Part shown: positions 46,266 through 63,140 of the stretch, piece after piece
How positions within the stretch are numbered: the stretch's first letter is position 1
How the letters are laid out: each line of letters begins with the position of its first letter
Source of the DNA: Craspedostauros australis
Lineage: Eukaryota; Bacillariophyta; Bacillariophyceae; Mastogloiales; Achnanthaceae
Direction: 5' to 3'
Assembly: GCA_026770025.1 (NCBI GenBank)
Contig: JAMXDE010000006.1
Span: 2,362,001-2,426,000, forward strand
Length of the DNA stretch: 64,000 nt
The notes under the pieces: generated by a model
The model's database searches: none
Seen by the model: the letters and a program-made list of their open reading frames with translations, nothing else
Told to the model about the DNA's origin: nothing
Made by a program: the position numbers and the translations under genes

Positions 46266-46323
46266 ATGACACCCAGCAACGAAAGTTATGAAGAGACAGT
46301 CGCCGACGTTGAGGTTCCCATGG
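46266..46323 (+). pseudogene. ABCG fragment 1 (start codon)
   Basis: ATG at 46266 opens MTPSNESYEETVADVEVPM. The reading frame continues exactly across the Copia-1 insertion when one copy of the CATGG duplication is discounted, entering ASSDGSKRVVD at 53058. This ties the start to the downstream pieces. Confidence 0.85.
46319..46323. repeat. Target-site duplication of Copia-1 (left copy, CATGG)
   Basis: CATGG directly precedes the left LTR and reappears at 53053-53057 after the right LTR. Five bases is the usual Copia length. Confidence 0.93.
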
Positions 46324-46849
46324 TGTTATCTCGGTATTGTACACAGCGAAATCACACGAGTCCTTCAAGAGAGATCAAGTCTTTCAGGACGAGGGTGACA
46401 AGCTGTTGAGTGAAGACACTGTTTGGGTTGAGTGACTTCTGATTCTATGTTATCTTCAAGGAGTTGTATCTCATGTTGCTGTCTTCAAGGTCAGCTCTCA
46501 GTCATTGCACCTCTACGATCTTGTTCTGATGTGGAGATGACCCATGATGTGGCGATGATGTCTTCTGTGTCGACGTCACTCATCACCGTTCCATGGCTCT
46601 GTCGATTCCACATTCCATTGATGATGCTTGAGGTCGTCGGGTGTGTTGTCATTTCAGGTTTAGTTGGGAAGTATATCAGGTCGAATTGGACATCACATGT
46701 TTGCCGGGTGGTGGCCAGACCGAATCTCTGATGTTCCCTAGTGTGTCCCTTATACCGAAATTCATGTGTCTGAGGAAAGCATCGTTTCAGCACATACAAG
46801 GACAGACTAATCAGAAAACGAATCAGGTGAATAAAGCGTTGTGCTAATA
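46324..46849 (-). repeat. Copia-1 3' LTR
   Basis: In element orientation it reads TATTAGCACAACGC ... GAGATAACA, with the polypurine tract directly upstream. By eye it matches the copy at 52527-53052 base for base. It starts with TA rather than TG. Confidence 0.94.
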
Positions 46850-46860
46850 CTCCCCGAAAC
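46850..46860 (-). other. Copia-1 polypurine tract
   Basis: GTTTCGGGGAG on the minus strand, directly before the 3' LTR. Second-strand DNA synthesis would start here. Copia-2 has the related TTTGGGGAG. Confidence 0.8.
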
Positions 46861-46874
46861 GTATCTTTTCGCAG

Positions 46875-49800
46875 TCACTTGTTGTGGTTGGGATCGGTGT
46901 TGCCCTTCCAGAACAACAGTGGTTGGATGAGGTCCCAGAAAACCGACCGTGGAAGGAATTTTGTGAGGATGTCGGCGATGTTCTGGTTTCCCTTGATCTT
47001 GATGAAGTACATCGTCCCAGCGGCGATGGCCGATCGGACTCGGTGGTAGGCCAGTGCGTTGTGTCTCTTGGATAGTACACTGGTTGGGATGGTGGAGGAT
47101 GTGACTACGCTCTGGTTGTCACCAAAGAGCCAGCTTGGGCCGTCCACAGGTATTCCCATTTCGCACAGCATCAGGCGGATGGATAGGATCTGTTCTGTTG
47201 CCAACCGTGCTGCCACGAACTCTGATCCGTAGGTGGCTGTCTCCACGGTGGACTGTCGCTTCGAGAACCATTCGATGGGCGTTTGGTTTATGAGATGCAC
47301 GATACCGGTTGCTGATTTCCCAGTCACCTTGCAGTGCATGAGATTCGCATCAACGAAAGTCGTGGTACGTACAGGTTTGCCTTTGGCTGTTGGTGCATCC
47401 GCTGGCAGCTCCTCTCGGTTGGGTCCGAACACAGAGTACATCCATTCGTGTTGTGGGATGTCGTAGTGTTCTTCATGGTTGGGGATTCCGGTTCGGAAGC
47501 GGATGGAGGCGTCTGGGTATTTTCGAAGGTACCCGTAGATGCGTTTCACCCTGTCCATGTGTCCTGCTCTTGGTGATGCACGGAAACGGGAGAGAGTCAT
47601 GACCGCCACGTGTATGTCGATCCTTCCCAGAGATACACACCATTGGAGTGCTCCGATCAACGACATGTACTTGGTTCGATCGATCTCCCCGAGTTCAGGC
47701 GTCGTATCGAGCTCAGGACTGTCGTCTTTGTCCATGGGGCAGCTGGTCTTGTTGGGTGGTCCGTCGAACATCTGTTCGTAGTTCGTGAGCATGCGTTTGA
47801 TGTAGGAACGCGCGCTGATTTTCATTGTGTCGTCGCTGTCTCTTCCGAAGTCTGCTCCTAGATGGTAGGAGATGGGGCCGACACCCTTGAGCTTGTAGCC
47901 ATACTGTGAAGTGAGAGTGTCGAAGAAGGAGCGTGGGTCAGACATGACCGCCATGAGATCGTCCACGTATACACATACGTATTCCCAGTGCGGACCTGCA
48001 TCACGCATCCATACATCAGGGTCAGACCTGTACTGCTGGAAGCCCATGTCTCGGAGAGTATCTGCCAGCGCTTCGTGGAAGCGAGCTCCGGATGTCCGGA
48101 GGCCGTAGAGCGCCTTGACAATCGTGAGCATGTGGCCTGCGTGCTCCCCGAACTCGTCGCCGGCTACGAAGCAGATCTTCTCCTTCGTGTAAGCCTCCAG
48201 GTAGGCGTTTCCAATGTCGCCGACCATGGTCTTGAGTCTGTTCAGTTCGCCAGCGAGTAGGGCGATTCGGAGTGACTGCAAGCTGACAACTCCGGCGTAG
48301 GAGGAGTCCTTGCATGGATCCGTCAGGTGGCCACCTGCCACACATCGTGCTCGGTGTCGGAGGTCGTGCTTGACCGCGTAGACCCATTGCAGCCGGATCT
48401 GTTGGTATCCGTCTGGAACGGTCTTGGTCTTGCCGAGCGATCGGAATGTCTCATATCCGAAGAGCTGTTCCATCTCGGTACGTTCTGCATCTGCCCAGAG
48501 CGTGTTGCCGTTGCGTTTGTCGAGGCGTACGGCTTCTTGGTGATTGCGTGGTACCTGGACACCAAACTGGTAGATGGGTGCGTTGGTGTGCTTCTTGGCC
48601 TTGTTGATAGAGGTCTTGCGCTCCATTCGAGCCTGTCGGTCAGAGAGCTTCTTCAGCCGTTTCCATCCAGGCTGATCGAGCAATCCGTTCTTTCGGCCGT
48701 ATGCCGCACATGATACAGGATCATCTTGCAACATGGTGGAGAGCGGTTTGGATGTTGTTGATCCGTCATCCCATTGTACAATGACATTGTATCGGGACCC
48801 CTTGTAGGTCTTGGTGTTCGGAGCGAGAGGTCCTTCGTGGCCGATGATGCCTTGGAATCCCCATACTCCGTCTTCGTCGTCTTCGTTGCGTTCGAGCTGC
48901 TGTTCGATGATGTCGGACAGCTGGACGTAGGAGATGAGTTCGTTGGTGGCTCCATCGTCGAAGGCGAGCAACATCTTGATTCGCTGATGGTTCGCTGCAT
49001 CCGCGTCATTGACGCGTTGGATGACTTCGGCCTTGACTCTCTGTCCGTCGCGATCGTACAGGAAGGTCTTGCCGATGAGATCCTCTGGTGTGAATCGAGG
49101 GATGGAGACTCTTGCCATGTCCGTCGTTCCAGGATCGGACTCCGCAGAAGCGAAAAGAACGGCGTCTCCGAGGGAATGTACAACTGGTTTCATTCCATCA
49201 GGCACTGGGACGTCGTCGTCAAGCTCCCCATCATCAGGTGGGTTCGTGTCCGAGCCGTCTTCCTCCCCAACGTCGGCCAGGGGAAAGTCGACACGCAGGT
49301 TGCGGGAGCCGTGTTCGTCGGCTGCACGGATCGAGGACCGAGGGAGGAGCTGTTGGGTGTCATCGTCCAACACCCAGAAGGTGAGTTCGTCACCCTTGTG
49401 GAGACAGGGTCCGGCCCATCTCCCCTTCCGCTCCTTGGACTGGCTGGGAAAGCCAGGTTTCTCAACGCGGTAGTACACCGGCTGCCACCAGCGGTAGGCA
49501 AGGAACTTGCTCACATCGGGACGGTGTCCGTAGGCTGCCTGCATCGGCGTGACGTTACCTGCCGTGCGCTGAGCCAAGTGGTTGAAGAGCACAATGACAT
49601 ACATGGTGCATATGAGCCAGAAGCGAGCAGGTGTGCCCGTCCTGTCCATGATGCCGTTCGTCATGCGCTTGATGTCTTGGATACGCCTCTCTGCGGCGTT
49701 CTGGTGCTGGTGCTCCGGTTCGCTCTGATGGTCAGCGATGGAGTACTGTCGGAGTATGTCTTGCACCTTGAATCCGATCTCGGATTTCGCGTTGTCGGAC

Positions 49801-52274
49801 ATCAGGAGATCAGGAGCTCCGTGACGCCGGATGAAGTCTTGGAGAGTGGAAGCGACTTGCTTCTCCGATGTCATGGGGAATCCTGCGGTGAAGCGAGAAT
49901 CCACGGCCACGTATACTTGCATCATCGTGCTGCCACCATGGCCTGGCACACCATCGTCGTGTGTAGGTGTGTCAGAGAACAACGTGTCCATGGCAACGGT
50001 CTCGTGGAGCCTGTCCACGTTCGCAGCAGGGAATCTGGTCTTGAAGTGCTTTCTCATGGTGAATCGCTCGGAGGTGCGGTACCATTGGGACGTGCACTTG
50101 AGAGTGTCTTGGACTCTTCTGACCGGGATCCATCCGAAGTACGGACGGAGGGCCTCATAGTCGATCGTCGGCTTCGCACGAGTGATAGCGCCCTGACTTG
50201 GGGCACCGGTCTCACTGGTGAACACTTCGATGGAGTCCGGTGAGTGGACGCCGTCGTCTGAGACACCATCTGAGATCCCGTCCAGCGAAGTGAACTCGTG
50301 GTCGAGAGTGGATGGGTCCCAGTCTTCGTCGGCAGTGAAATCCACGTGAGGGTACGTGTCAATCTCCCTGCGTGTGGGGGGCCGCATGTCCATGTAGGAC
50401 AGGCCCTGTCGGATGGAGAGAGGGACCACATGCCCATCAGGCACGATGATTGTCTGTCTCCCTCCAGGGAGTTCGCGAGGACGCTCGTTGACGTCGAGAC
50501 CGAATGCACCGAGCTGATTCGTCGAGTGAATCGTCTTGCCCTTGCCATAGAGGGCGTATTGGTGAAACTTCGCGATGATTGGTCCCTCGGTGGATATGAC
50601 GAGTCCAGCGACTGTTCCGATGTCCAGGTTGACGATTGCGGTGTCTCCAATTCCGCTGATGTCGGCGGTATGGTTGGTACGGCTGATGATAGTCACATCA
50701 TCGCCTGCCAATCCTCCATTCGCACCGCTGTCGATCAGGGAACCGGACTTCGCAACATCGATCTTGTTGAAGCTGTATTGCAGGACTGTGGCCTGAACAG
50801 CACGGTAGACCTTGCCCTGGATGATCACTTCGTCAGAAGTGTTGGTGTTGGTCGTGGCATTGGCCAGCATGCGCTTGATGGCATCGCCAGGGAGTTCGTC
50901 AGAACCGGCGCTGCCGGAGGTCGAGGTGGGCTTGGCTTGCCCACCACCCCCATTGCCAGTGGTGGATGTCTTGTTGGCCTGTCTGTTTGCTGCGTCCCTG
51001 GTGTACTTGGGGTCCCAAGTACCCTTGGACTGCATGTGGGCCTTCTTCTGATCCCATGTCATTTGCTTCCATTCGTTGTCTGGGATTCGCTTGTTCGTGT
51101 TCTTGTTCTTGGATTGGTTGGTCTTGTTCTCGTTGTTGCTTGCGTCCTTGCTTGCGTCCTTGCTTGTGTTGTTGACCCTACGCTTGGTCTTGTTGCGTGG
51201 GACGCGCAGGTCATTGCGCTGTGCGGATCTGCGCACAACACCAAGGAAGGCATCGAAGTCCAACCTGAAGTCGGCCTTTCCTGTCGCCAACGCCAAGTTA
51301 CTCTGGAGAGCATCGGCGTCGTCAAGGGAACGGAAGAGATCGGCGTCAGGGGTGATGGCCTCCTTGAGCCACTGGAGCTTCCAGTCCTCAGAGACAGGTG
51401 CATCCTGAATCTCTTCGAGGTCGTTGATCTTGCTGAGCCAGCTGTTCACGAAGGCTTCGCGGCTGCCGTTCCAGGAGTGGTTCAGCTTGAGGTTTCGGAT
51501 CTCCTCCTGGATCAGCTGGGCCTTGTTGGCTGCGGCTACTCCGGTCGCGTACTCCTCACGGAGCATGGTATACACCCCATGGCCATTCTCGTCATCGGCG
51601 TATGCCTGAAGACAGTTGCGGCTCTTCGTGGTTCTGAGGCAGTGGGTCAAGACGTAGAAGAGGAAAGTGCGCTGCTTGTCGAACAGCTCAGACTCATCTT
51701 GGGTCGGGAGGTACTCGGGGTCCACGACGTTCTTCACACCGTGCGCTGCAGCGGTGGCTCGAAGACGTCGATCAAAGACCATGAACTGGTCATCGCTCTT
51801 CAGGATCGGATAGTCGCTGAGGTTCCGCTTGATGCCTTTGTCGAAGGCAGCGGCTCCATCAGAGACAGGTTCAGGAGGTGGTGGTGTCACCATGGACGAT
51901 ATGGTGGGTTCGGGTTTCGGCATGGAGGCATCCACGCGCTTCTTGAGTTCAGCTCTCATGAAGGTCTGGAGCCTCGCAGCGTTCAGGTCAAGCCAGACGG
52001 AATCGCCGTCGCCAGCTTGCGCGTCATACCACATTGGGAGTGCGAGGATCTTGCGAATGTGCAATGCGGTCAATCGGCATGAGTACGGGTCTCCCGAGGT
52101 GGGAGTGATGTCGCGATGAAGACCGTCGAGGTCTTCCTTGGTGAGGAAGGTGAGGTCGTCAACGTTCTCCACCGCTGCGTCGATGATAACGCGACGATGG
52201 TCGGAATCGTCGGAGATACCCACGGCCTTGAGGACGTGGTTCAGTACGGTGATGGGTTCGGTGGGTTCTGTCAT
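46875..52274 (-). CDS. Copia-1 gag-pol polyprotein
   Basis: 1799 residues without a stop. Gag-like helical region to about residue 380, then a basic Asn/Lys-rich linker. The protease has LIDSGANGGLAGDD near 515. The integrase has its acidic residues in AMDTLFSD near 763, LLMSDNAKSE near 823 and EPEHQHQNAAERR near 854, a D-D35E arrangement. Reverse transcriptase spans about 1260-1500 with LQWVYAVKHDLRHRARCVAGG, GNAYLEA and the catalytic VYVDDL near 1436. RNase H has TTFVDANL near 1638, ETATYGSEFVAA and FGDNQSV. I see neither a CCHC knuckle in gag nor an HHCC finger at the integrase start. Gag and pol share one frame with no frameshift signal. Confidence 0.95.
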   Translation of the reverse strand: MTEPTEPITVLNHVLKAVGISDDSDHRRVIIDAAVENVDDLTFLTKEDLDGLHRDITPTSGDPYSCRLTALHIRKILALPMWYDAQAGDGDSVWLDLNAARLQTFMRAELKKRVDASMPKPEPTISSMVTPPPPEPVSDGAAAFDKGIKRNLSDYPILKSDDQFMVFDRRLRATAAAHGVKNVVDPEYLPTQDESELFDKQRTFLFYVLTHCLRTTKSRNCLQAYADDENGHGVYTMLREEYATGVAAANKAQLIQEEIRNLKLNHSWNGSREAFVNSWLSKINDLEEIQDAPVSEDWKLQWLKEAITPDADLFRSLDDADALQSNLALATGKADFRLDFDAFLGVVRRSAQRNDLRVPRNKTKRRVNNTSKDASKDASNNENKTNQSKNKNTNKRIPDNEWKQMTWDQKKAHMQSKGTWDPKYTRDAANRQANKTSTTGNGGGGQAKPTSTSGSAGSDELPGDAIKRMLANATTNTNTSDEVIIQGKVYRAVQATVLQYSFNKIDVAKSGSLIDSGANGGLAGDDVTIISRTNHTADISGIGDTAIVNLDIGTVAGLVISTEGPIIAKFHQYALYGKGKTIHSTNQLGAFGLDVNERPRELPGGRQTIIVPDGHVVPLSIRQGLSYMDMRPPTRREIDTYPHVDFTADEDWDPSTLDHEFTSLDGISDGVSDDGVHSPDSIEVFTSETGAPSQGAITRAKPTIDYEALRPYFGWIPVRRVQDTLKCTSQWYRTSERFTMRKHFKTRFPAANVDRLHETVAMDTLFSDTPTHDDGVPGHGGSTMMQVYVAVDSRFTAGFPMTSEKQVASTLQDFIRRHGAPDLLMSDNAKSEIGFKVQDILRQYSIADHQSEPEHQHQNAAERRIQDIKRMTNGIMDRTGTPARFWLICTMYVIVLFNHLAQRTAGNVTPMQAAYGHRPDVSKFLAYRWWQPVYYRVEKPGFPSQSKERKGRWAGPCLHKGDELTFWVLDDDTQQLLPRSSIRAADEHGSRNLRVDFPLADVGEEDGSDTNPPDDGELDDDVPVPDGMKPVVHSLGDAVLFASAESDPGTTDMARVSIPRFTPEDLIGKTFLYDRDGQRVKAEVIQRVNDADAANHQRIKMLLAFDDGATNELISYVQLSDIIEQQLERNEDDEDGVWGFQGIIGHEGPLAPNTKTYKGSRYNVIVQWDDGSTTSKPLSTMLQDDPVSCAAYGRKNGLLDQPGWKRLKKLSDRQARMERKTSINKAKKHTNAPIYQFGVQVPRNHQEAVRLDKRNGNTLWADAERTEMEQLFGYETFRSLGKTKTVPDGYQQIRLQWVYAVKHDLRHRARCVAGGHLTDPCKDSSYAGVVSLQSLRIALLAGELNRLKTMVGDIGNAYLEAYTKEKICFVAGDEFGEHAGHMLTIVKALYGLRTSGARFHEALADTLRDMGFQQYRSDPDVWMRDAGPHWEYVCVYVDDLMAVMSDPRSFFDTLTSQYGYKLKGVGPISYHLGADFGRDSDDTMKISARSYIKRMLTNYEQMFDGPPNKTSCPMDKDDSPELDTTPELGEIDRTKYMSLIGALQWCVSLGRIDIHVAVMTLSRFRASPRAGHMDRVKRIYGYLRKYPDASIRFRTGIPNHEEHYDIPQHEWMYSVFGPNREELPADAPTAKGKPVRTTTFVDANLMHCKVTGKSATGIVHLINQTPIEWFSKRQSTVETATYGSEFVAARLATEQILSIRLMLCEMGIPVDGPSWLFGDNQSVVTSSTIPTSVLSKRHNALAYHRVRSAIAAGTMYFIKIKGNQNIADILTKFLPRSVFWDLIQPLLFWKGNTDPNHNK

Positions 52275-52276
52275 CT

Positions 52277-52376
52277 TGTTCGGTTCGGTACGGAGAAGCG
52301 GATACGCTGTGCTCGGTGTGTTCGTTTGTTCGGTTCGTCACGGAGAAGCGGATACGCTGTGCTCGGTGTGTTCGTG
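52277..52376. repeat. 50-bp tandem duplication in the Copia-1 leader
   Basis: Two copies of a 50-bp unit containing GGAGAAGCGGATACGCTGTG lie between the primer-binding site and the gag start codon. The copies differ at about three bases (GGTA versus GTCA). Confidence 0.9.
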
Positions 52377-52509
52377 TGCGCTGCCTTGGGAGGCTCTTGT
52401 TGTTGTTCGGTTCCTGCTTCACGTCGTCACGTGATGCAGTTGGTTCGTTGCTGATGGGATCAGCTCGGTGGGTTGGAGGTGTTTTCACGCAGTCAGGTCA
52501 GGACGTAGT

Positions 52510-52526
52510 GCTTGCGACTGTTAATC
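52510..52526 (-). other. Copia-1 primer-binding site
   Basis: In element orientation GATTAACAGTCGCAAGC directly follows the 5' LTR. The complement GCTTGCGACTGTTAATC contains CTGTTAA, a seven-base anticodon loop with GTT (Asn), flanked by bases that can pair (GA with TC). The same 17 bases follow the Copia-2 LTR. Confidence 0.75.
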
Positions 52527-53052
52527 TGTTATCTCGGTATTGTACACAGCGAAATCACACGAGTCCTTCAAGAGAGATCAAGTCTTTCAGGACGAGGGTG
52601 ACAAGCTGTTGAGTGAAGACACTGTTTGGGTTGAGTGACTTCTGATTCTATGTTATCTTCAAGGAGTTGTATCTCATGTTGCTGTCTTCAAGGTCAGCTC
52701 TCAGTCATTGCACCTCTACGATCTTGTTCTGATGTGGAGATGACCCATGATGTGGCGATGATGTCTTCTGTGTCGACGTCACTCATCACCGTTCCATGGC
52801 TCTGTCGATTCCACATTCCATTGATGATGCTTGAGGTCGTCGGGTGTGTTGTCATTTCAGGTTTAGTTGGGAAGTATATCAGGTCGAATTGGACATCACA
52901 TGTTTGCCGGGTGGTGGCCAGACCGAATCTCTGATGTTCCCTAGTGTGTCCCTTATACCGAAATTCATGTGTCTGAGGAAAGCATCGTTTCAGCACATAC
53001 AAGGACAGACTAATCAGAAAACGAATCAGGTGAATAAAGCGTTGTGCTAATA
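52527..53052 (-). repeat. Copia-1 5' LTR
   Basis: Right-hand copy of the 526-bp LTR; in element orientation this is the promoter-bearing copy. It is followed by CATGG, the right copy of the target duplication (53053-53057). Confidence 0.94.
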
Positions 53053-53268
53053 CATGGCCTCCTCTGATGGAAGCAAGAGGGTGGTTGACACCAAAGCATC
53101 GAAGACCTCATCCAATCTCAAGGGATCGTCTGTGTTCAAGTTCCACGATATCGACTTCGTCATCGGAACTGGCAACAAGAAGAAGCACATCCTCAAGAAT
53201 GCCAGTGACAAAGTCAAACACAGCCGAGGCTTGGCCATCATGGGGCCTTCTGGCATGGGAAAGACCAT
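53053..53268 (+). pseudogene. ABCG fragment 2 (Walker A)
   Basis: Encodes a polar N-terminus, then FKFHDIDFVIGTGNKKKHIL and IMGPSGMGKT, the first strand and Walker A of an ABCG ATPase. It stops right after the P-loop lysine and threonine, where the solo LTR begins. A frame to 53281 runs only five codons into the LTR. Confidence 0.88.
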
Positions 53269-53904
53269 TGATAGAACGTAATCGAGTACGGGTAGGATAC
53301 CGCACCGAAAATGCAGAGTGATCAATTGGTAGTTGTTGGTGAGGAAATTGTTTGCTGATGTAGTTATTCGTATGAGTAGTAAACGGGTGAGCTCCAAAGA
53401 TTGAGCTCTTGGAACTGTGAGCATGGGGGAGGGCGTGCGGGCCTCATGCATATTCAGATGGAATCCAACACGGAGGTAACACAACAAATGTAAGTGCTAC
53501 TGCAAGTTTTCAAATTTGCAATAGTCAGGAAACAAACACCGCGATATGGCATGTTGTAGAATGTGGCGTGGCTCCTCACGATGTTGCTAGTAGAACGATC
53601 ACACGATTGGTCGTCTTCCATGTTGAGAAGGTCTGGATCCATTCACATTTATTGGGCCAAGACCGGAGTCTATCCTAACTGGATGGAAGCTCCTTCTCTG
53701 AATTCAGGATGGGTAAGAAAATTGGTTCCATGCTGTCCGAAAACTGAGGGAAAACGATTCATGTGACACGAAGGGCGACATAAAATGGACATGGCGTCAT
53801 GTCGCATCAAGATTCTCATCCAGCAGCGGAGAAACGGGAAATGGACTCTTTTCTGATTGGTCGACAGGAGCCACTTGTTTCAAAAATATAGCGTTGCGCT
53901 AATC
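53269..53904 (-). repeat. Diverged solo LTR related to Copia-2
   Basis: The reverse complement aligns end to end with the Copia-2 LTR. Shared blocks include TAGAACGTAATCG, AGGATACCGCACCG, TGTTGGTGAGGA, ACACCGCGATA, CACGATGTTGCTAGTAG and TTCTGATTGGTCGAC, with many substitutions between them. No polypurine tract or primer site adjoins it, so it is a solo LTR or fragment. Left flank ACCAT and right flank GCTGA do not match, so no target duplication is preserved; a deletion on the right side is likely. Confidence 0.85.
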
Positions 53905-54280
53905 GCTGAATACATGTGGGAGAGAGATTGACGATCGACTCATTGCCCTTCTCCACCTGTCTGGAAGGGTGTTGGGAATCACAGACACGTACTATGAAAC
54001 CGTGAACATCAGCACCGTGGCAGTAGCACACGACATGAACATCAGCAGCATGCCAGTCGCACACCACATGAAGAGAAGTGTACAAGCAGAACGTCGGATG
54101 CGAAGTTTGAATACAAAAAGGGAGATGAGAAATTGTGCGACTAGATGGAAATCTTGGTCTCATCATCAGCCATCGATAACAACAAACGATAACAACAAAC
54201 GATAACAACACAAAATAAAAATAAGCACAATCGATGTGAAACAAGGACTCTGAATTAATACCAGGCAGATTTCTTTACAG
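53905..54280. other. Unassigned DNA between solo LTR and ABCG fragment 3
   Basis: About 375 bp with no match to ABCG coding sequence that I can see. It contains a tandem ACAACAAACGATA stretch (54177-54210) and an A-rich tract, and ends in a plausible splice acceptor. It may be intron sequence or part of another degraded insertion. About 100 codons of the ATPase domain should have been near here and are absent. Confidence 0.45.
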
Positions 54281-54601
54281 ATACCATCCCCAGAACAGTT
54301 GATCGAATCATCCAAAAGATAGGCCTCGCCATTTGTGCTGACACCCGTTGTGTGAGTCCCAGCTGCGGGCAGCAGAGACGTCTTAGCATCGCTTTGGCAC
54401 TCGTCAAACAGCCAACCGTGCTCTTCCTTGACGAGCCAACATCATGCAAGAAAGCTCGCATGTTGCCAAGGAAAAGAACCTCATCATCGTGTGCACCATC
54501 CATCAGCCATCCACCAAGACTTCCAACGGATTCGATCAGGTCATGATCATGAGTCGTGGGCACCAAGCATTCTCGGGTGATGTCGATGAAGCGACGCCAT
54601 A
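54281..54601 (+). pseudogene. ABCG fragment 3 (signature, Walker B, H-loop)
   Basis: Reads TVDRIIQKIGLAICADT, then the altered signature SPSCGQQRRLSIALALV, then VLFLDEPTS. After a frame change at about 54438 it continues NIMQESS, IVCTIHQPSTKTSNGFDQV and MSRGHQAFSGDVDEATP. CTIHQPS is the H-loop region. TTTCTTTACAG ending at 54280 looks like a splice acceptor, so this may be an exon start. Confidence 0.85.
54597..54601. repeat. Target-site duplication of Copia-2 (left copy, CCATA)
   Basis: CCATA directly before the 5' LTR and again at 61788-61792 after the 3' LTR. Skipping one copy restores the ABCG frame ATPYFDRIG. Confidence 0.94.
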
Positions 54602-55231
54602 TATTAGCGCACGCTAAATCTCTAACAATAGCGACACCCGTCGACCAATCAGAAATATTCACTTTTCTTACCTTTTCCGTTCCGAACGGAAATTTTGGTC
54701 GAAAATCCGTTGCGTCAAATTTGTGTCGCATTTCGCGTCGCAAGAATCGTTTTCCCTCAATCACAGATCCAAAATGTCGCGGAAATTGATTTCTTGCCAA
54801 GATGAGCCAATCTGCCCAATCAGGACAGACTTGGATCTTGGGTGTGACACGTGCGAATCTTGCCATGACCTTCTCAAGTGAATACGATCAATCGTGTGAT
54901 CGTACTACTAGCAACATCGTGAGAAGACGTAATTCACAACACGGGCTATCGCGGTGTTTTGTTCATTGACCTTTTGCACCTCATCTTCACGCAGTAACAC
55001 GCACATTTGCCGTGTTGTCTCCGTGTTAATTTCACTTGCAAATTGCATGAGACCTGTCATGTCTCTCTCATGCTCACAGTTCTCAAGAAACCATCTTGTG
55101 AGCTCGACAGCATTCCTACTACCATACGAATAATACAGTAAACAAACACTCTCCTCACCAACAACAACGACTTGATCACTCTACGTTCTCGGTGCGGTAT
55201 CCTACGACCCATCTACGATTACGTTCTAACA
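54602..55231 (+). repeat. Copia-2 5' LTR
   Basis: Reads TATTAGCGCACGC ... TTCTAACA. A near-perfect inverted repeat TTTCCGTTC-C-GAACGGAAA sits at 54674-54692 in what would be U3. The opposite strand has an open frame shared with the other LTR copy that shows no family features. Confidence 0.94.
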
Positions 55232-55248
55232 GATTAACAGTCGCAAGC
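55232..55248 (+). other. Copia-2 primer-binding site
   Basis: GATTAACAGTCGCAAGC immediately after the 5' LTR, identical to the Copia-1 site although the LTRs themselves differ. Complementary to a tRNA-Asn(GUU)-like anticodon arm. Confidence 0.75.
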
Positions 55249-55551
55249 TTTCACCTACTGAATTGATTGCGTGACAATCCATCCATCCTTCATCCCTCGT
55301 CCATCCACGAGCGATCCCTTCACCTTCCATCACGTGACGACGTGATTTCGGCTTTCCTTCGGCTTTCTCGCATTCGCAGAACGCCCTCCTTTCGGTTCCC
55401 CTGCTGAGTCCGGGCCTTCCCACTCAGCCATCCAAGACTTCCTGCAGCACCCTCCCGCACCAGAAGACGATTCAGTCAGTGCACTCCAGCCTCAGCTACC
55501 CTTCAGCCTCCAGCATCCGCATCCACTCTCTCCATCCATCCATCGCCAATC
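55249..55551 (+). other. Copia-2 leader
   Basis: About 300 bp of untranslated leader, pyrimidine-rich, with a TCCATCCATCCATC run just before the gag start at 55552. No open frame of note. Confidence 0.5.
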
Positions 55552-58500
55552 ATGTCGACTCCTGAGATGGACCTCGCCACCTTGGATCACATCCTCGGTG
55601 TCATCGGCATCCCTTCGGACTCCACTCCTCGCGACATCATCGCCCATGCGGACATCGTCAGCCCTCTTGACCTTGTCTCGCTCACCGAAGATGATCTTCG
55701 CAGCTTCCAACTTCGCGATGAGATCGATGATGGCGAAACCATCGTCGCCGTACTCGGAGTGAACCACATCCGCAAGATCCTCAACCTTGGCAAGTGGTAT
55801 CTCACCCAAGCCATCCTTGACGACAACACCTGGAACGATCTCGATCGTACCTCGTTCATGGCGTTCACAGCTGAGCAGAACAACCCTTCCCTTCCGTCTT
55901 CGCACTCGCATTCGACTGCAAGCTCTCCCATTCCGTCTCCGATGGGCATGGGCCACCACACCACCCCAGCATCCGCATTCCGTCCGGTGCCTGAAGAACC
56001 TCCGCATGTGAACTTCGCATTCGATCCTTCGGCTTCGGTGCCTGATCCTGCCTACCCGCAACCGCCTGTGACTCCATCCATGGCACCCTCTTCCAACTTC
56101 CAAGGTGTCCAAGCCATGGAGCTTCCAGCTGACTACGTCAAGGAGTTCAGCAAGGCGACCAAGCGGGAGAGTCTGTCGCTCCCAACACTGAAGGACGACA
56201 AGCACTTCCTCACCTTCATGCGGACCTTCGAGACTCTTTCCTTCTCCCATGGACTCAACCACCATCTCGATATGGATTTCATGCCAGCACCCAAGGACGA
56301 GGCCTTCTTCGCGAGCCAGAATCGCTACCTCTTCGCCGTGCTCACTGAGCATGTCAAGACTTCCAAGAGTCGGCGCATCATCCGTGCCTACAAGAAGTCT
56401 TGCAATGGCCGTGCGGCCTACGCCGATCTCGTCGATAGCTACACCAGTGGCGTCGTCGGCGAGACTCTGTCCATCAAGTACAGAGATGCCATCGTCGCCT
56501 TCCGATTGGACCAATCTTGGACCAAGACCCGCGAGCAATTCCTCGATGCCTGGGAAACCAAGCTCGATGACATCGAAGAGCTCGATGATGCATGTGTCGA
56601 TGAGGCGGTCAAGCAGCAATGGTTGCGTACCGCCATCGGTCCCGATGTCGACTTGACTCGGGCCTACACCAACGTGAAGTCCAACTCCCGTCAACGTCAC
56701 AAGCAATCTCGCGGCTTCATCAAGGTTGGTGTCTCCTTCGAAGACCTCCTCGAGTTCGTTCGAGATGAGGCACAATCCCTCGACGCCAACCAGCCTCGCA
56801 CCACATCTCGGCGCAAGGTCAACAACACCAAGACCAGCGGCTCTGCTGGCAAAGGCAATGGCAAGGACTATGCCAAGGACGACCGTCGTTCCATTCCCAA
56901 TGACGAATGGCGTGAGATGTCCAAGGATCAGCGCAAGGCTTTCCTTGAGGCAAAGGGCAAGTGGCGCAAGAACAAGGGCAAGGGCAAGGCTGACTCCCAC
57001 CGAGCTGCCAACAACGCTGCCACATCTTCGGGCACCACCGACACTCCTTCCGCAACCCCGTCCGCTGGCAACACGGACTCTTCCAAGGCTGGTGACCAGT
57101 CCACTGCCATCGATCGCCTTCTCGCTCAGACCAAGTCCACCACTTCGTCTGACGATAATCCTCAACTGGTATACAAGGGCCAGACCTGGCGCCTTGCCAA
57201 CTCCACGGTGGTCCGGTACAGCTTCAACAAGCTTGTCAAGGACCACTCTGGCTCTCTCGTCGACAGCGGTGCCAATGGTGGCTTGGCTGGCGATGACGTC
57301 CTCGTTCTCTGCAAGACAGGACACACCGCCGACGTCAGTGGCATTGGTGACTCTGCCATCGCCAACCTCGACATCGGTACGGTTGCCGGTCTCATCCAGA
57401 CCACCGAAGGGCCCATCATTGGTAAATTCCACCAATACGCGCTCTACGGAAAGGGCAAGACCATTCATTCATCCAACCAGCTTGGTGCCTTCGGAATGGA
57501 TGTCAACGAACGCCCACGGAATCTCCCTGGAGGTCGCCAGACCATCATCACACCAGGAGGCCACATCATCCCACTGACTGTCCGGCAAGGCCTGTCCTAC
57601 ATGGACATGGCCAAGCCCACCCGCTCTGAACTCGACAAGTATCCACATGTCGACTTCACCGCGGACGACGAATGGGACCCTTCTTCCCTCGACCAGGAGA
57701 TGAACCTCGACGACGTCGACGATGATGACGCCGCAGCACTTCAGCGCCGCGAGAACAACTCTACCGTTCTCACGGCCTACACTGGTGCTCGCCAAGCCGA
57801 CATCGCTGACAACCCGGGCAGCATCATTGCCACTCGCAAGCCTGCCGACTACGAGGCTCTCCGTCCCCACTTCGGCTGGATACCAGCTCGTCGCGTTCGC
57901 GACACTCTTCGGTGTACCTCTCAATGGTACCGTACCGCCGAGCGCTTCTCCATGCGCAAGCATTTCAAGTCTCGGTTCCCAGCGGCCAACGTCGACCGTC
58001 TCCATGAGACGGTTGCGATGGATACGCTCTTCTCCGACACCCCTGCTCACGACGACGGGGTTCCCGGCCATGGCGGCTGCACCATGCTTCAGGTGTACGT
58101 CGCCCTCGACTCTCGGTTCACGGCCGGCTTTCCCATGCCATCCGAGAGCCGCATCTCCGACACTCTCCGTGACTTCATCCGACGCCACGGGGCTCCCGAC
58201 CTACTGATGTCCGACAACGCCAAGGCACAGATCGGTAACAAGGTTATGGAGATCCTCCGGCAGTATCACATCCGTGATCACCAGAGTGAGCCGGAACATC
58301 AACACCAGAACGGCGCGGAACGCCGGATCCAGGATATCAAACGCACAACCAACGGTGTGATGGATCGCACGGGTACTCCCGACCGCTTCTGGATGATCTG
58401 CACGCTCTATGTGGTTGATCTCTTCAACCACATCGCGCAGGTCACCGCTGGCTCCATCACCCCCCTTCAAGCCGCCTTCGGACAGCGACCGGACATCTCC

Positions 58501-61133
58501 AAGTTCCTGTCCTACCGATGGTGGCAACCTGTCTACTACCGGGTTGACAACCCCACCTTCCCCAGCCAGTCCAAGGAGCGCAGTGGACGCTGGGCCGGTC
58601 CCTGCCTTCACAAGGGCGACGACCTCACCTTCTGGGTCCTCGACGACGAGACCCAGCGACTTCTTCCTCGGTCTGCCATCCGACCTGCCGACGACTCTGC
58701 CACCCGCAATCTTCGTGCGGACTTCCCCTTCCCCATTGTTGGGGAGGACGATGGCTCTGATGCCATGAATGTGGCGAATGGGGAGCCAGACGACGACATC
58801 TCCGTCCCTCCTGACTCCGATCCCATCGTACACTCCCTCGCCGATTCCATCCTGGCTGACCGCCGCGGCACAGACCCTGAAACAGTGGGGAATGCCAAGG
58901 TCCACATCCCGAAGTTCTCTCCCGAGGATCTCGTTGGGATGACCTTCATCCACGAGAAGGATGGCCAGCAAGTCAGAGCGGAGGTGGTGCAAAAGGTCAA
59001 TGACCTTGACGCAGCCAACCACCAACGCATCAAGATGCTACTCGCACTGGCTGATGGGGAGACGCATGACCTCATCTCCTACGTTGAGCTCGCCGATATC
59101 ATCGAACGGCAACAGGAGCACAACGACGACCCCGATGCCAAGTGGGAGTTCGACTCCATCATCGGACACTAAGGTCCCCTCTCATCTTCCTCTCCCTCCT
59201 ACAAGGGATCCAGCTTCAACGTCATCGTCAAATGGGGAGACGGCTCCACCTCCACCGAACCCCTCTCCATCATGATTCAGGATGATCCTGTCTCTTGCGC
59301 TGCCTACGGCCGCCGCCACGAGCTGCTCGACGAGCCTGGCTGGAAGCGCCTCAAGCGCCTCGCCATCCGCACCAATCGTCTTGAGCGTCAGGTCCACAAA
59401 TCCAAGACCTTCAACCACGCTCCCACCTTCCAGTTCGGTGTCCAAGTCCCCCGCAACCACAAAGAAGCGCTGCGACTCGACGACAAGAACGGCAACACTC
59501 TCTGGGCCGACGCCGAGAAGAAGGAGATGGACCAACTCTTCGGGTACCATACCTTCAAGTCTCTCGGAAAAGGCGCCCCAGTCCCTTCCGGCTTCCAGAA
59601 GATCCGCCTCCAATGGGTCTACGCGGTGAAGCATGACCTCCGCCACAAGGCGCGTTGCGTCGCTGGTGGTCATCTCACCGACCCCTGCAAGGATGCATCC
59701 TACGCAGGTGTGGTCAGTCTTCGCTCTCTCCGCCTCTCCCTCCTCGCCGGCGAACTCAACGGCATCCCAACCTGGGTTGGAGACATCGGCAATGCGTATC
59801 TTGAGGCCTTCACTCAAGAACGCATCTGCTTCATCGCTGGTGACGAATTCGGTGACTTCGCTGGTCATACCATGCAGATAGTCAAGGCACTCTACGGCCT
59901 GCGCACATCGGGCGCCCGATTCCATGAGGCCCTCGCCGACACCCTTCGCGACATGGGTTTCCTCCAATGCCGCTCCGATCCCGACGTCTGGATGCGTGAC
60001 GCCAACTCCCATTGGGAGTACGTCTGCGTCTACGTCGATGATCTCACCGCGACGATGGCCGACCCCAAGGCCTTCTTCGACACCCTCTCTTCGAAGTACA
60101 GGTACCAGCTCAAGGGAGTTGGTCCTATCAAGTACCATCTCGGTGCTGACTTCGGCCGTGATCCAGACGGCACCCTCAAGCTCTCCCCGCAATCCTACAT
60201 CAAGCGGATGATGGAGAACTACGAACGCATGTTCGGCGAGCTTCCCCACAAGATGAGCTGCCCCCTCGACAAGGCCGACAGTCCGGAGCTCGACACCTCT
60301 TCCGAACTTAGCGAAACCGACAAACGCAAGTTCATGTCGCTCATCGGTGCACTCCAGTGGTGTATCTCCCTCGGACGGTTTGACATCTCTGTCGCCGTCA
60401 TGACGCTAGCACGCTTCCGCTCAGCGCCCCGCCAAGGCCATCTGGACCGCGCAAAGCGAGTCTACGGATATCTTCGCAAACACCCGGATGCTGCCATCCG
60501 CTTCCGCACTTGCGTTCCCCGCTTCGATCTTCACTACGAGGTTCCCAACCATGACTGGATCTACTCCGTCTACGGGAAGACCTCTGAGGAGATTCCGGAC
60601 GACATCCCCGAGCCGAAAGGCAAACCTGTCCGAACTACCACGTTCGTCGACGCCAACCTTCTCCACTGCCAAGTCACTGGCAGATCCGCTACTGGTGCTC
60701 TCCACATGGTAAACCAGACCCCCATCGAATGGTTCTCCAAGCGCCAAGGCACAGTCGAGACCGCCACCTACGGGTCCGAGTTCGTCGCTGCCCACAAGCT
60801 ACGGAGCAGATCATCTCCCTTCGCCTCGCTCTCCGCGAGATGGGCATTCCGATCGACGGCCCCAGCTGGATGCTGGGTGACAACCAGTCCGTCATCACCT
60901 CCTCCACGGTCCCTAAGAGCATGCTCTCCAAGCGCCACAACGCACTGGCTTACCATCGCGTCCGGTCCGCTGTCGCCGCTGGCATCCTCTACTTCATCAA
61001 GATCCCCGGAACGCAGAACGTCGCCGACGTGATGACGAAGTTCCTCCCATGGGCTGTCTTCTGGCCCCTCGTGAAGCCCATCCTCTTCTGGAAAGGGCAC
61101 ACTGAGTCCTCTTCCCTGACCTACAAGACCTGA
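55552..61133 (+). pseudogene. Copia-2 gag-pol, interrupted by a nonsense codon and a frameshift
   Basis: The first segment (55552-59172, 1206 codons) encodes gag, a protease with LVDSGANGGLAGDD near residue 570 and an integrase with AMDTLFSD near 824, LLMSDNAKAQ near 886 and EPEHQHQNGAERR near 916. It ends IIGH-stop, where Copia-1 has IIGHEGPL, so GAA has become TAA. The same frame continues with the reverse transcriptase (YVDDL at 60031) and RNase H start. At 60793-60797 five bases replace the expected six, shifting the frame; ATEQIISLRLAL then continues in the next frame to the stop at 61131-61133. A basic linker near residues 420-490 replaces any CCHC knuckle. Confidence 0.93.
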
Positions 61134-61148
61134 ATGTCCGGGACACGC

Positions 61149-61157
61149 TTTGGGGAG
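61149..61157 (+). other. Copia-2 polypurine tract
   Basis: TTTGGGGAG directly before the 3' LTR, comparable to the Copia-1 tract. Confidence 0.8.
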
Positions 61158-61787
61158 TATTAGCGCACGCTAAATCTCTAACAATAGCGACACCCGTCGA
61201 CCAATCAGAAATATTCACTTTTCTTACCTTTTCCGTTCCGAACGGAAATTTTGGTCGAAAATCCGTTGCGTCAAATTTGTGTCGCATTTCGCGTCGCAAG
61301 AATCGTTTTCCCTCAATCACAGATCCAAAATGTCGCGGAAATTGATTTCTTGCCAAGATGAGCCAATCTGCCCAATCAGGACAGACTTGGATCTTGGGTG
61401 TGACACGTGCGAATCTTGCCATGACCTTCTCAAGTGAATACGATCAATCGTGTGATCGTACTACTAGCAACATCGTGAGAAGACGTAATTCACAACACGG
61501 GCTATCGCGGTGTTTTGTTCATTGACCTTTTGCACCTCATCTTCACGCAGTAACACGCACATTTGCCGTGTTGTCTCCGTGTTAATTTCACTTGCAAATT
61601 GCATGAGACCTGTCATGTCTCTCTCATGCTCACAGTTCTCAAGAAACCATCTTGTGAGCTCGACAGCATTCCTACTACCATACGAATAATACAGTAAACA
61701 AACACTCTCCTCACCAACAACAACGACTTGATCACTCTACGTTCTCGGTGCGGTATCCTACGACCCATCTACGATTACGTTCTAACA
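61158..61787 (+). repeat. Copia-2 3' LTR
   Basis: Same 630 bases as the 5' copy by eye; followed by CCATA. Because 61157 is G and 54601 is A, the LTR start is fixed at the T of TATTAG. Confidence 0.94.
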
Positions 61788-63140
61788 CCATACTTCGATC
61801 GCATCGGATTTCCACTCCCAGAGGCCACCAACCCAGCCGATCACTTCCTTGATCTTGTAAATTCTGACTTCTCTGGTGACGAAGAAGCGGAGCACATTCT
61901 CAACCTTTGGGACCAGCACAAGTCGAAGAATGCGTTGTTCCACAGAGGTTCCACTCTTGACACAGAACTAATTGACAATGATGCCAACGACGACGAAGCG
62001 GCGGGCATGGGGAAGACCCAAGGCACCAGCTTCATGACAGAAATCAGCATCATGTTCAAACGCCATCTGCTATTGATCGGCCGTAATCCCATCTTGTATC
62101 TCGGACGTTGCCTCGTCTTCCTCATGATGAGCACGGTGATTAGCTTCGTGTTCTGGAATGCGCAAGACAACGAGTTCGATCAGCTGTACAACAAGATGTG
62201 GAGCCAGGTCTGGTTTGTGAGCATCTCGACCAAGAGTACGTGGTGAATGGCTCGAAGCCAAGAAACGAAATGAAATGAACTGAAATGGAAACCGAGACAC
62301 AACATATCTTTTGTGCATCTTCCGCCTTCTATTGCAACTGTCAATATGCGCATGCCAACGACTATGTACGAATAGGGCGGCAACGATGATGATGCTCACA
62401 TTGTCTACTCTATCCCATTCTACTCCATCCTACTCTACTTTACTCTGTGCCTACTCTACTCTGCTGCATTCCATATGATCTGAACGCGAACAGTGGGAAT
62501 CGTCGCGGTGTGCGCATTAAACAATGAGTTCAAATCCATTCAACAAGAATCGCAGAATGGAATGGTCTCCGCAGCCACCTATGTCATGGTCAAGTCCATC
62601 CTCGTCGTTCCCATCTTCATCCTCTTTGCGATCTTCTCCCTCCTTATTCCAGCATACGCCATCCACGGCTTGCCGTGGGAAGCGTTCGGCATACACATTA
62701 TTCTGTGCGCAGCCATCATGTTCGTCTTCGAGAGTGCTGCGGAGGCACTGTCCGTGCTGGTTGACGATCCGATCATCGGCATGATGCAATTCATGATCTT
62801 TTAGTCTGGAAGCTTCCTCTTCAGTGGCTTCCTCGTCCCTGAATCGGATCAGTACTGGCCATTGAAGTTGTTCTATTACATCATGCCGTATGGATACTAC
62901 ATCCACAGCATGATGTACACCATCTTACACGACACGGACTTCGACGATAGCCTGACCAGCGAAGAGGCGCTGGAGAAGCTACACAGGGTGTTCCCCGTTG
63001 TGGAGAACAAAGACAACGTGGGACAGGACATCGCCATCTTGCTGGCCATCGGCGCATTCTACAAGATCCTGTACATCGTGGCCGTCATGATCAACACCCG
63101 CAAGGTCGCTGAGGTTCAGGCACCGAACCAATCTCCATGA
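61788..63140 (+). pseudogene. ABCG fragment 4 (membrane domain)
   Basis: Continues YFDRIGFPLPEATNPADHFL from the H-loop piece, then the first helix (YLGRCLVFLMMSTVISFVFW). An intron (62236-62493, GTACGT...ACAG, phase 1) joins KM-GIVAVCALNNEF. Later come helices IFILFAIFSLLIPAYAI and IILCAAIMFVFESA. TAG at 62802-62804 replaces what is normally an aromatic residue before SGSFLFSGFLVPES. The final helix ends near 63110 and the stop is 63138-63140. Confidence 0.88.
62236..62493 (+). other. Intron of the ABCG pseudogene with TACTC pentamer tract
   Basis: 258 bp, GTACGT donor and GCGAACAG acceptor. Its second half (62398-62468) is a degenerate TACTC/TCTAC pentamer array. Splicing restores the ABCG frame in phase 1. 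Confidence 0.8.

Follow-up and report, generated by a model that had tools for sequence, protein, structure and literature searches.

Copia elements of the diatom Craspedostauros australis carry a probable primer-binding site that fits an internal segment of tRNA-Asn and mismatches it at G26

How reverse transcription is primed is the question raised by two Copia-type insertions in a 64,000-nucleotide (nt) stretch of the Craspedostauros australis genome (contig JAMXDE010000006.1, positions 2,362,001 to 2,426,000; hereafter the window), where the same 17 bases follow two 5' long terminal repeats (LTRs) of different sequence. An original prediction, made from the letters of the DNA, proposed that these elements, here termed E1 and E2 (Table 1), represent two Copia families primed from the anticodon arm of tRNA-Asn. 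The common 17-mer, GATTAACAGTCGCAAGC, indeed begins immediately after the 5' LTR in each element, with no base between, and they provide its only two matches with three or fewer mismatches in the window (0.14 expected; 1 of 100 shuffles reached two). Across the whole genome searched (74.8 Mb in 90 contigs, the window lying within contig C4), 294 places matched with two or fewer mismatches, tRNA genes included, compared with 3 for the reversed control. The 100 places listed were all exact, and the 30 of them read in context fell into three groups by their flanks, which were similar inside each group and dissimilar across groups: group A like E1 (9 places), group B like E2 (15) and group C (6). 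The Copia type of both elements is borne out by identical LTR pairs, 5-bp target-site duplications (TSDs) and RVT_2 reverse transcriptases, features of the Pseudoviridae. The LTRs differ and the gag regions are about 29% identical, while the pol stretches are 70-76% alike in DNA and the families are therefore related.

An anticodon-arm pattern of tRNA-Asn without position 26, one mismatch being allowed (an intron-bearing gene would escape it), matched five places, all of them tRNA-Asn(GUU) genes identical in sequence, so that the genome holds the arm on which the proposal depended. With the anticodon at nt 34-36 of the nuclear tRNA-Asn(GUU), GATTAACAGTCGCAAGC pairs with nt 24-40 at 16 of 17 positions and with nt 27-40 at all 14; the match is thus real but not perfect, the sole mismatch being an A opposite G26 that the original prediction had overlooked. 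The alignment places the predicted 3' end of the primer at C40, in keeping with the expectation of base 40. This primer-binding site (PBS), complementary to an internal tRNA segment and beside the 5' LTR, corresponds to a feature of the genus Hemivirus. Canonical priming from the tRNA 3' end was rejected, as had been anticipated, since the first 12 bases of such a PBS for tRNA-Asn are absent from both strands of the window. Likewise, the tRNA-Asn of contigs C83 and C89, which are taken as plastid by tRNA content, does not fit, and the arm pattern had no match in contigs C83, C89 or C90; nor was there, among the five arm matches, an isodecoder with T26 or any other tRNA gene able to template the A opposite G26. 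No relatives of the elements were found in viral contigs by pattern or protein.

Most simply, the alignment supports the 5' part of tRNA-Asn ending at C40 as the putative primer. That a short internal tRNA fragment of about 17-19 nt serves instead of the full 5' half seems improbable; its precedent lies in Phaeodactylum tRNA fragments of ~19 nt, seen in nine cases, that match the D loop and anticodon and are described as belonging to no known class (PMC4247016), although these may be unrelated. Priming by another RNA, or self-priming with an accidental resemblance to tRNA-Asn, is very hard to credit: the best of 2000 random 17-mers compared with 1742 windows of the tRNAs collected, an incomplete set that makes the control somewhat generous, matched at 14 of 17 positions and none reached 16, and other PBS-like sites fit arms of tRNA-Lys and initiator tRNA-Met (iMet) at identical tRNA positions. 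Nevertheless, some Copia elements are reported to self-prime or to have no PBS (PMC6317226, PMC5445492), and one Copia family of this genome (L079:2300-8197, G000:C39; a 1499-amino-acid (aa) frame, with 17 frames of that length listed and one copy read) carries, in place of a tRNA match, a 14-bp palindrome formed by A, the last base of its 5' LTR, and CGTTTTAAAACGT. This palindrome is like the conserved hairpin site described for the fungal GalEa elements (PMC5445492).

Beyond the scope of the original prediction, the same genome contains PBS-like sites that fit other tRNA arms. In L080 (1262-aa frame), L082 (1362 aa) and L083 (1360 aa), which with E1, E2 and L079 are the elements whose LTR pairs were seen, the 5' LTR is followed by CGCTTCCTCTGCGCAACGT, complementary to the D-arm of iMet, three genes for which were found and read. 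Pairing is full from G10 to nt 24, or up to G26 counting the CA of the LTR end; because this CA also fits the tRNA, the primer may have its 3' end at nt 24, 25 or 26. The match breaks at G9, after which three of three nt pair again. A D-arm pattern with position 9 free matched 32 places (control 0), 3 of them the tRNA genes, which have G, and the other 29 sites with T, corresponding to A in the PBS; 23 of the 29 were read in context, and 20 of these formed two flank groups of 11 and 9. Over the reverse transcriptase-RNase H part, E1 shares about 25% identity with L080, L082 and L083, and the Asn and D-arm groups are therefore old relatives.

Searches with the anticodon arms of iMet and tRNA-Lys(CUU) placed no constraint on nt 26 and tolerated one further mismatch; they treat the base at 26 fairly but are biased toward sites fitting nearly throughout. 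The iMet arm matched 12 places, of which 3 were tRNA genes and 9 had T at 26 (A in the PBS). The Lys(CUU) arm matched 20 (control 0): five with G at 26 that coincide with tRNA matches, three of them read as Lys(CUU), 13 of a commoner form with T at 26 (A in the PBS) and 2 of a rarer form with A at 26 (T in the PBS). Six of the 13 commoner Lys sites, both rarer ones and five of the nine iMet anticodon sites were read in context; the eight Lys copies come after TTTGACA, a plausible LTR end, and the five iMet copies after CAATTA. In the iMet anticodon sites and the two Lys forms nt 27-40 are fully paired and the match breaks at G26. A Copia family with a 1399-aa frame was left out of the PBS sampling, and no LTR ends or PBS were assigned to the family of L081 (about 2080 aa).

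In all these types, almost every copy seen has A or T opposite the key G, G26 or G9. G26 is a usual site of N2,N2-dimethylguanosine (m2,2G), made by Trm1, and G9 one of 1-methylguanosine (m1G), made by Trm10. A search of the genome yielded a single TRM match, the protein of which is similar to a solved Trm1 (E 7.5e-38), and a single tRNA_m1G_MT match; among solved proteins the closest to the latter is a tRNA guanine-9 N1-methyltransferase (E 1.5e-44). That G26 and G9 are methylated in this diatom we infer from other eukaryotes. In yeasts, high misincorporation by reverse transcriptase is reported at m1G9 and m2,2G26 (PMC4697793, PMC12140624). The observations as a whole are probably best explained by a Hemivirus-type PBS with a 5' tRNA-Asn fragment as primer, together with a stop or misreading at G26. 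A nuclease would cut the nuclear tRNA-Asn(GUU) on the 3' side of the anticodon stem, just past C40; for yeast Ty5, according to a review, the internal tRNA cut is made by host RNase P (PMC5371799). The resulting 5' fragment would anneal to the PBS by nt 27-40, and by nt 24-25 beyond G26, and from its 3'-OH minus-strand strong-stop DNA would be started right at the edge of the LTR. At a later stage, plus-strand strong-stop DNA would copy the tRNA part of the minus strand as far as G26, where reverse transcriptase would either stop, leaving a 14-nt PBS, or read through, inserting A and sometimes T.

The break at G26 has another possible source even if priming by a tRNA-Asn half is right, namely a fixed 14-nt annealing footprint beyond which the bases are unconstrained and inherited. 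In each of the five types, PBS nt 15 is where pairing first fails (nt 17 in the D-arm group, should its primer end at G26), and families of one type have at least part of their descent in common, as the pol likeness of E1 and E2 illustrates. Pairing nevertheless resumes past the break at 2 of 2 nt in the Asn type and 3 of 3 in the iMet D-arm type, 5 of 5 in all, which would happen by chance about once in 1000; this figure rests on the two types found without presuming a fit past the break, and the rarer Lys form resumes at 2 of 2 as well, though there the pattern used worked in favour of this. Furthermore, the A at the mismatch is common to families whose gag regions are so dissimilar. The renewed pairing argues against a fixed footprint, which we regard as having the smaller share of the probability while still a serious rival.

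Selection during annealing offers a different account, in which A or T is kept since C pairs poorly with m2,2G or m1G whereas m2,2G pairs with A. It agrees with the A or T of all types, the three exceptional copies apart, and with the relation between m2,2G26 and A44, which pair inside the tRNA; tRNA-Asn has A44 in its sequence. On the other side, all 29 D-arm sites have A opposite G9, and m1G9 is not known to form a stable pair with A comparable to m2,2G-A; selection would also have to act on one base pair close to the distal end of the duplex. We consider it doubtful.

Returning to a stop or misreading at the methylated G, we put forward tentatively, and with less than even confidence, a wider reading in which these PBSs would be genomic scars of tRNA methylation: m2,2G26 and m1G9 would halt the plus strand in Copia elements primed from inside a tRNA, a misread A or T would be written into the PBS, the tRNAs would be cut about 14 nt downstream of the methylated G, and iMet would yield a D-arm 5' fragment of ~24-26 nt. 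Such a fragment would be shorter than any half-tRNA primer known to us.

Several points tell against the favoured explanation as a whole. A boundary at the methylated G is confounded with that of a fixed 14-nt footprint, and the PBS types are few and partly related. The A opposite G26 in 100 of 100 listed exact places follows from the design of the pattern, and the base at this position was seen only among those 100 of the 294 places and in copies otherwise intact. A search for the three other bases at 26 with the rest intact returned eight places, five of them tRNA genes and three PBS copies; two of these copies, of family A, have C, the tRNA-matching base, opposite G26, and one, of family C, has G. 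Both the iMet anticodon sites and the commoner of the Lys forms mismatch at nt 25 too and give no sign of read-through there. The reversed control of the iMet anticodon search itself gave 2 matches, and the adjacency of family C, Lys and iMet anticodon sites to an LTR is deduced from the junction. Lastly, 9 of 36 fission-yeast tRNAs with G26 are reported to seem not to be Trm1 targets (PMC4697793).

If the reading in terms of methylated G is true, integrated retrotransposons record which tRNAs are cut, where they are cut and which of their bases are methylated, and tRNA modification would be partly inferable from genome sequence alone. Trm1 and Trm10 would then be linked to transposition in much the way that methylation at m1A58 is linked to HIV-1 plus-strand transfer; the reading also hints at what the D-loop and anticodon tRNA fragments of no assigned class, reported from a diatom, could be used for.

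The architecture of the two window elements is given in Table 1. In a Pfam search, neither E1 nor the first E2 frame showed an integrase domain, the latter being without any match; integrase-like motifs before the reverse transcriptase were recognised by eye only. The E2 copy is broken: a stop interrupts its coding part near 59170, and its frame shifts near 60800. The LTRs of both elements open with TA (TATTAG) rather than TG, and the E1 leader contains two 50-nt tandem copies (52276-52375; 96% alike) just upstream of the start codon.

Table 1. Features of the Copia-type elements E1 and E2 (positions in the window)
Feature	Position	Strand	Remarks
E1, whole element	46324-53052	minus	Copia-type insertion with identical LTRs and TSD CATGG
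E1 TSD	46319-46323 and 53053-53057		CATGG; fixes the LTR ends
E1 3' LTR	46324-46849	minus	526 bp; same sequence as 52527-53052; minus strand TATTAG...ATAACA
E1 polypurine-tract-like motif	46850-46855	minus	GGGGAG; just before the 3' LTR; read from sequence
E1 gag-pol frame	46875-52274	minus	1799 aa; open, without internal stop
E1 RVT_2 (PF07727)	aa 1286-1500 of the 1799-aa frame		E 3.6e-22
E1 PBS	52510-52526	minus	GATTAACAGTCGCAAGC; complement of tRNA-Asn nt 24-40, A opposite G26
E1 5' LTR	52527-53052	minus	526 bp; same sequence as 46324-46849
E2, whole element	54602-61787	plus	Copia-type insertion with identical LTRs and TSD CCATA
E2 TSD	54597-54601 and 61788-61792		CCATA
E2 5' LTR	54602-55231	plus	630 bp; TATTAG...CTAACA; same sequence as 61158-61787
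E2 PBS	55232-55248	plus	GATTAACAGTCGCAAGC; adjoins the 5' LTR
E2 first frame	55552-59172	plus	1206 aa; judged from its resemblance to E1, spans gag and beyond; ends at a stop absent from E1
E2 reverse transcriptase frame	59272-61032	plus	reading departs from E1 near 60800 (frameshift)
E2 RVT_2	piece 59272-60795	plus	E 4.5e-22
E2 polypurine-tract-like motif	61152-61157	plus	GGGGAG; read from sequence; motif common to E1
E2 3' LTR	61158-61787	plus	630 bp; same sequence as 54602-55231

E1, E2 and a lone E2-type LTR (~53280-53900, minus strand) lie within, or at the beginning of, one ABC-transporter-like gene (53054-54601 and 61788-62246) and thereby break it up; the gene shows a weak ABC2_membrane match below the cut-off, and a P-loop and ABC signature were recognised by eye. 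Family C had no LTR pair within its 3-kb loci, and no sense-strand open reading frame of at least 100 aa was present in the first 1.5 kb of two copies (L003 and L006, of six fetched); family C may therefore be non-autonomous and mobilised by A or B, or may have a long leader. Elsewhere in the genome, Copia copies lie roughly one or two element lengths apart, with a 7151-nt repeat in L081 and reverse transcriptase matches at 223421, 230019 and 243226 of G000:C62 (6598 and 13207 nt apart), a spacing that suggests head-to-tail arrays with common LTRs. Apart from the transposons, the silicon transporter family PF03842 matched 88 stretches genome-wide (best E 4.2e-249), of which 28 are near full length without stops, apparently a large set.

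Half-tRNA priming is already known. The elements described here resemble members of the genus Hemivirus of the Pseudoviridae (Drosophila copia, 1731, yeast Ty5 and Volvox Osser) in being of the same Copia type, in using a short tRNA segment and in a start at nt 40; Drosophila copia, 1731 and Volvox Osser reportedly use initiator tRNA-Met as primer. A short tRNA segment as primer is the mark of this genus (PMC8515867), and hemiviruses, which by whole reverse transcriptase are reported not to form one cluster, are described as initiating cDNA from nt 40 in the anticodon stem-loop (PMC1181622). The Ty5 primer is given as initiator tRNA-Met (PMC5371799), whereas the fit here is to tRNA-Asn, and elsewhere in the genome to Lys(CUU) and the iMet D-arm. 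Fungal Helenus elements and their Copia partners likewise have PBSs complementary to the anticodon loops of several tRNAs; tRNA-Asn-GTT is said there to be chosen once, while another sentence of the same source lists Tyr, Ile, Asp and iMet (PMC10886601). Helenus differs in being fungal and itself non-autonomous, and the accessible part of its description makes no remark on methylated bases (PMC10886601). An Asn half as primer is unusual, though predicted once before, in Helenus, and cannot be called the wholly distinct variant that the original prediction had envisaged, given the known genus and its known nt 40 start (PMC8515867, PMC1181622, PMC10886601); the tie to tRNA cleavage under stress, which that prediction also raised, is speculative. 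Among titles and opening abstracts of the open-licence papers that the literature searches listed, none linked PBS sequence to m2,2G or m1G or described half-tRNA priming in diatoms, and the word tRNA is absent from the main text of a diatom Copia study (PMC2806351).

Three further systems bear on the imprint of the tRNA in the PBS. The fungal FunCo1 Copia has a PBS complementary to an internal tRNA-Lys region, like the Lys sites here, in another host and with a stated length of 11 nt that is shorter than in our elements (PMC5445492). The plant Copia element Bianca is described as using a half-tRNA primer, with a PBS that fits inosine 34 of tRNA-Ile and not the genomic A (PMC6317226); there the modified base is at the wobble position, whereas G26 and G9 lie near the far end of the duplex. 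In HIV-1, m1A58 of tRNA-Lys3 is reported to fix the end of plus-strand strong-stop DNA (PMC13191261), and the primer is the full tRNA 3' end, with 18 nt; in the diatom elements, by contrast, the proposed stop would be m2,2G26 or m1G9, and the misread base would be kept in the PBS.

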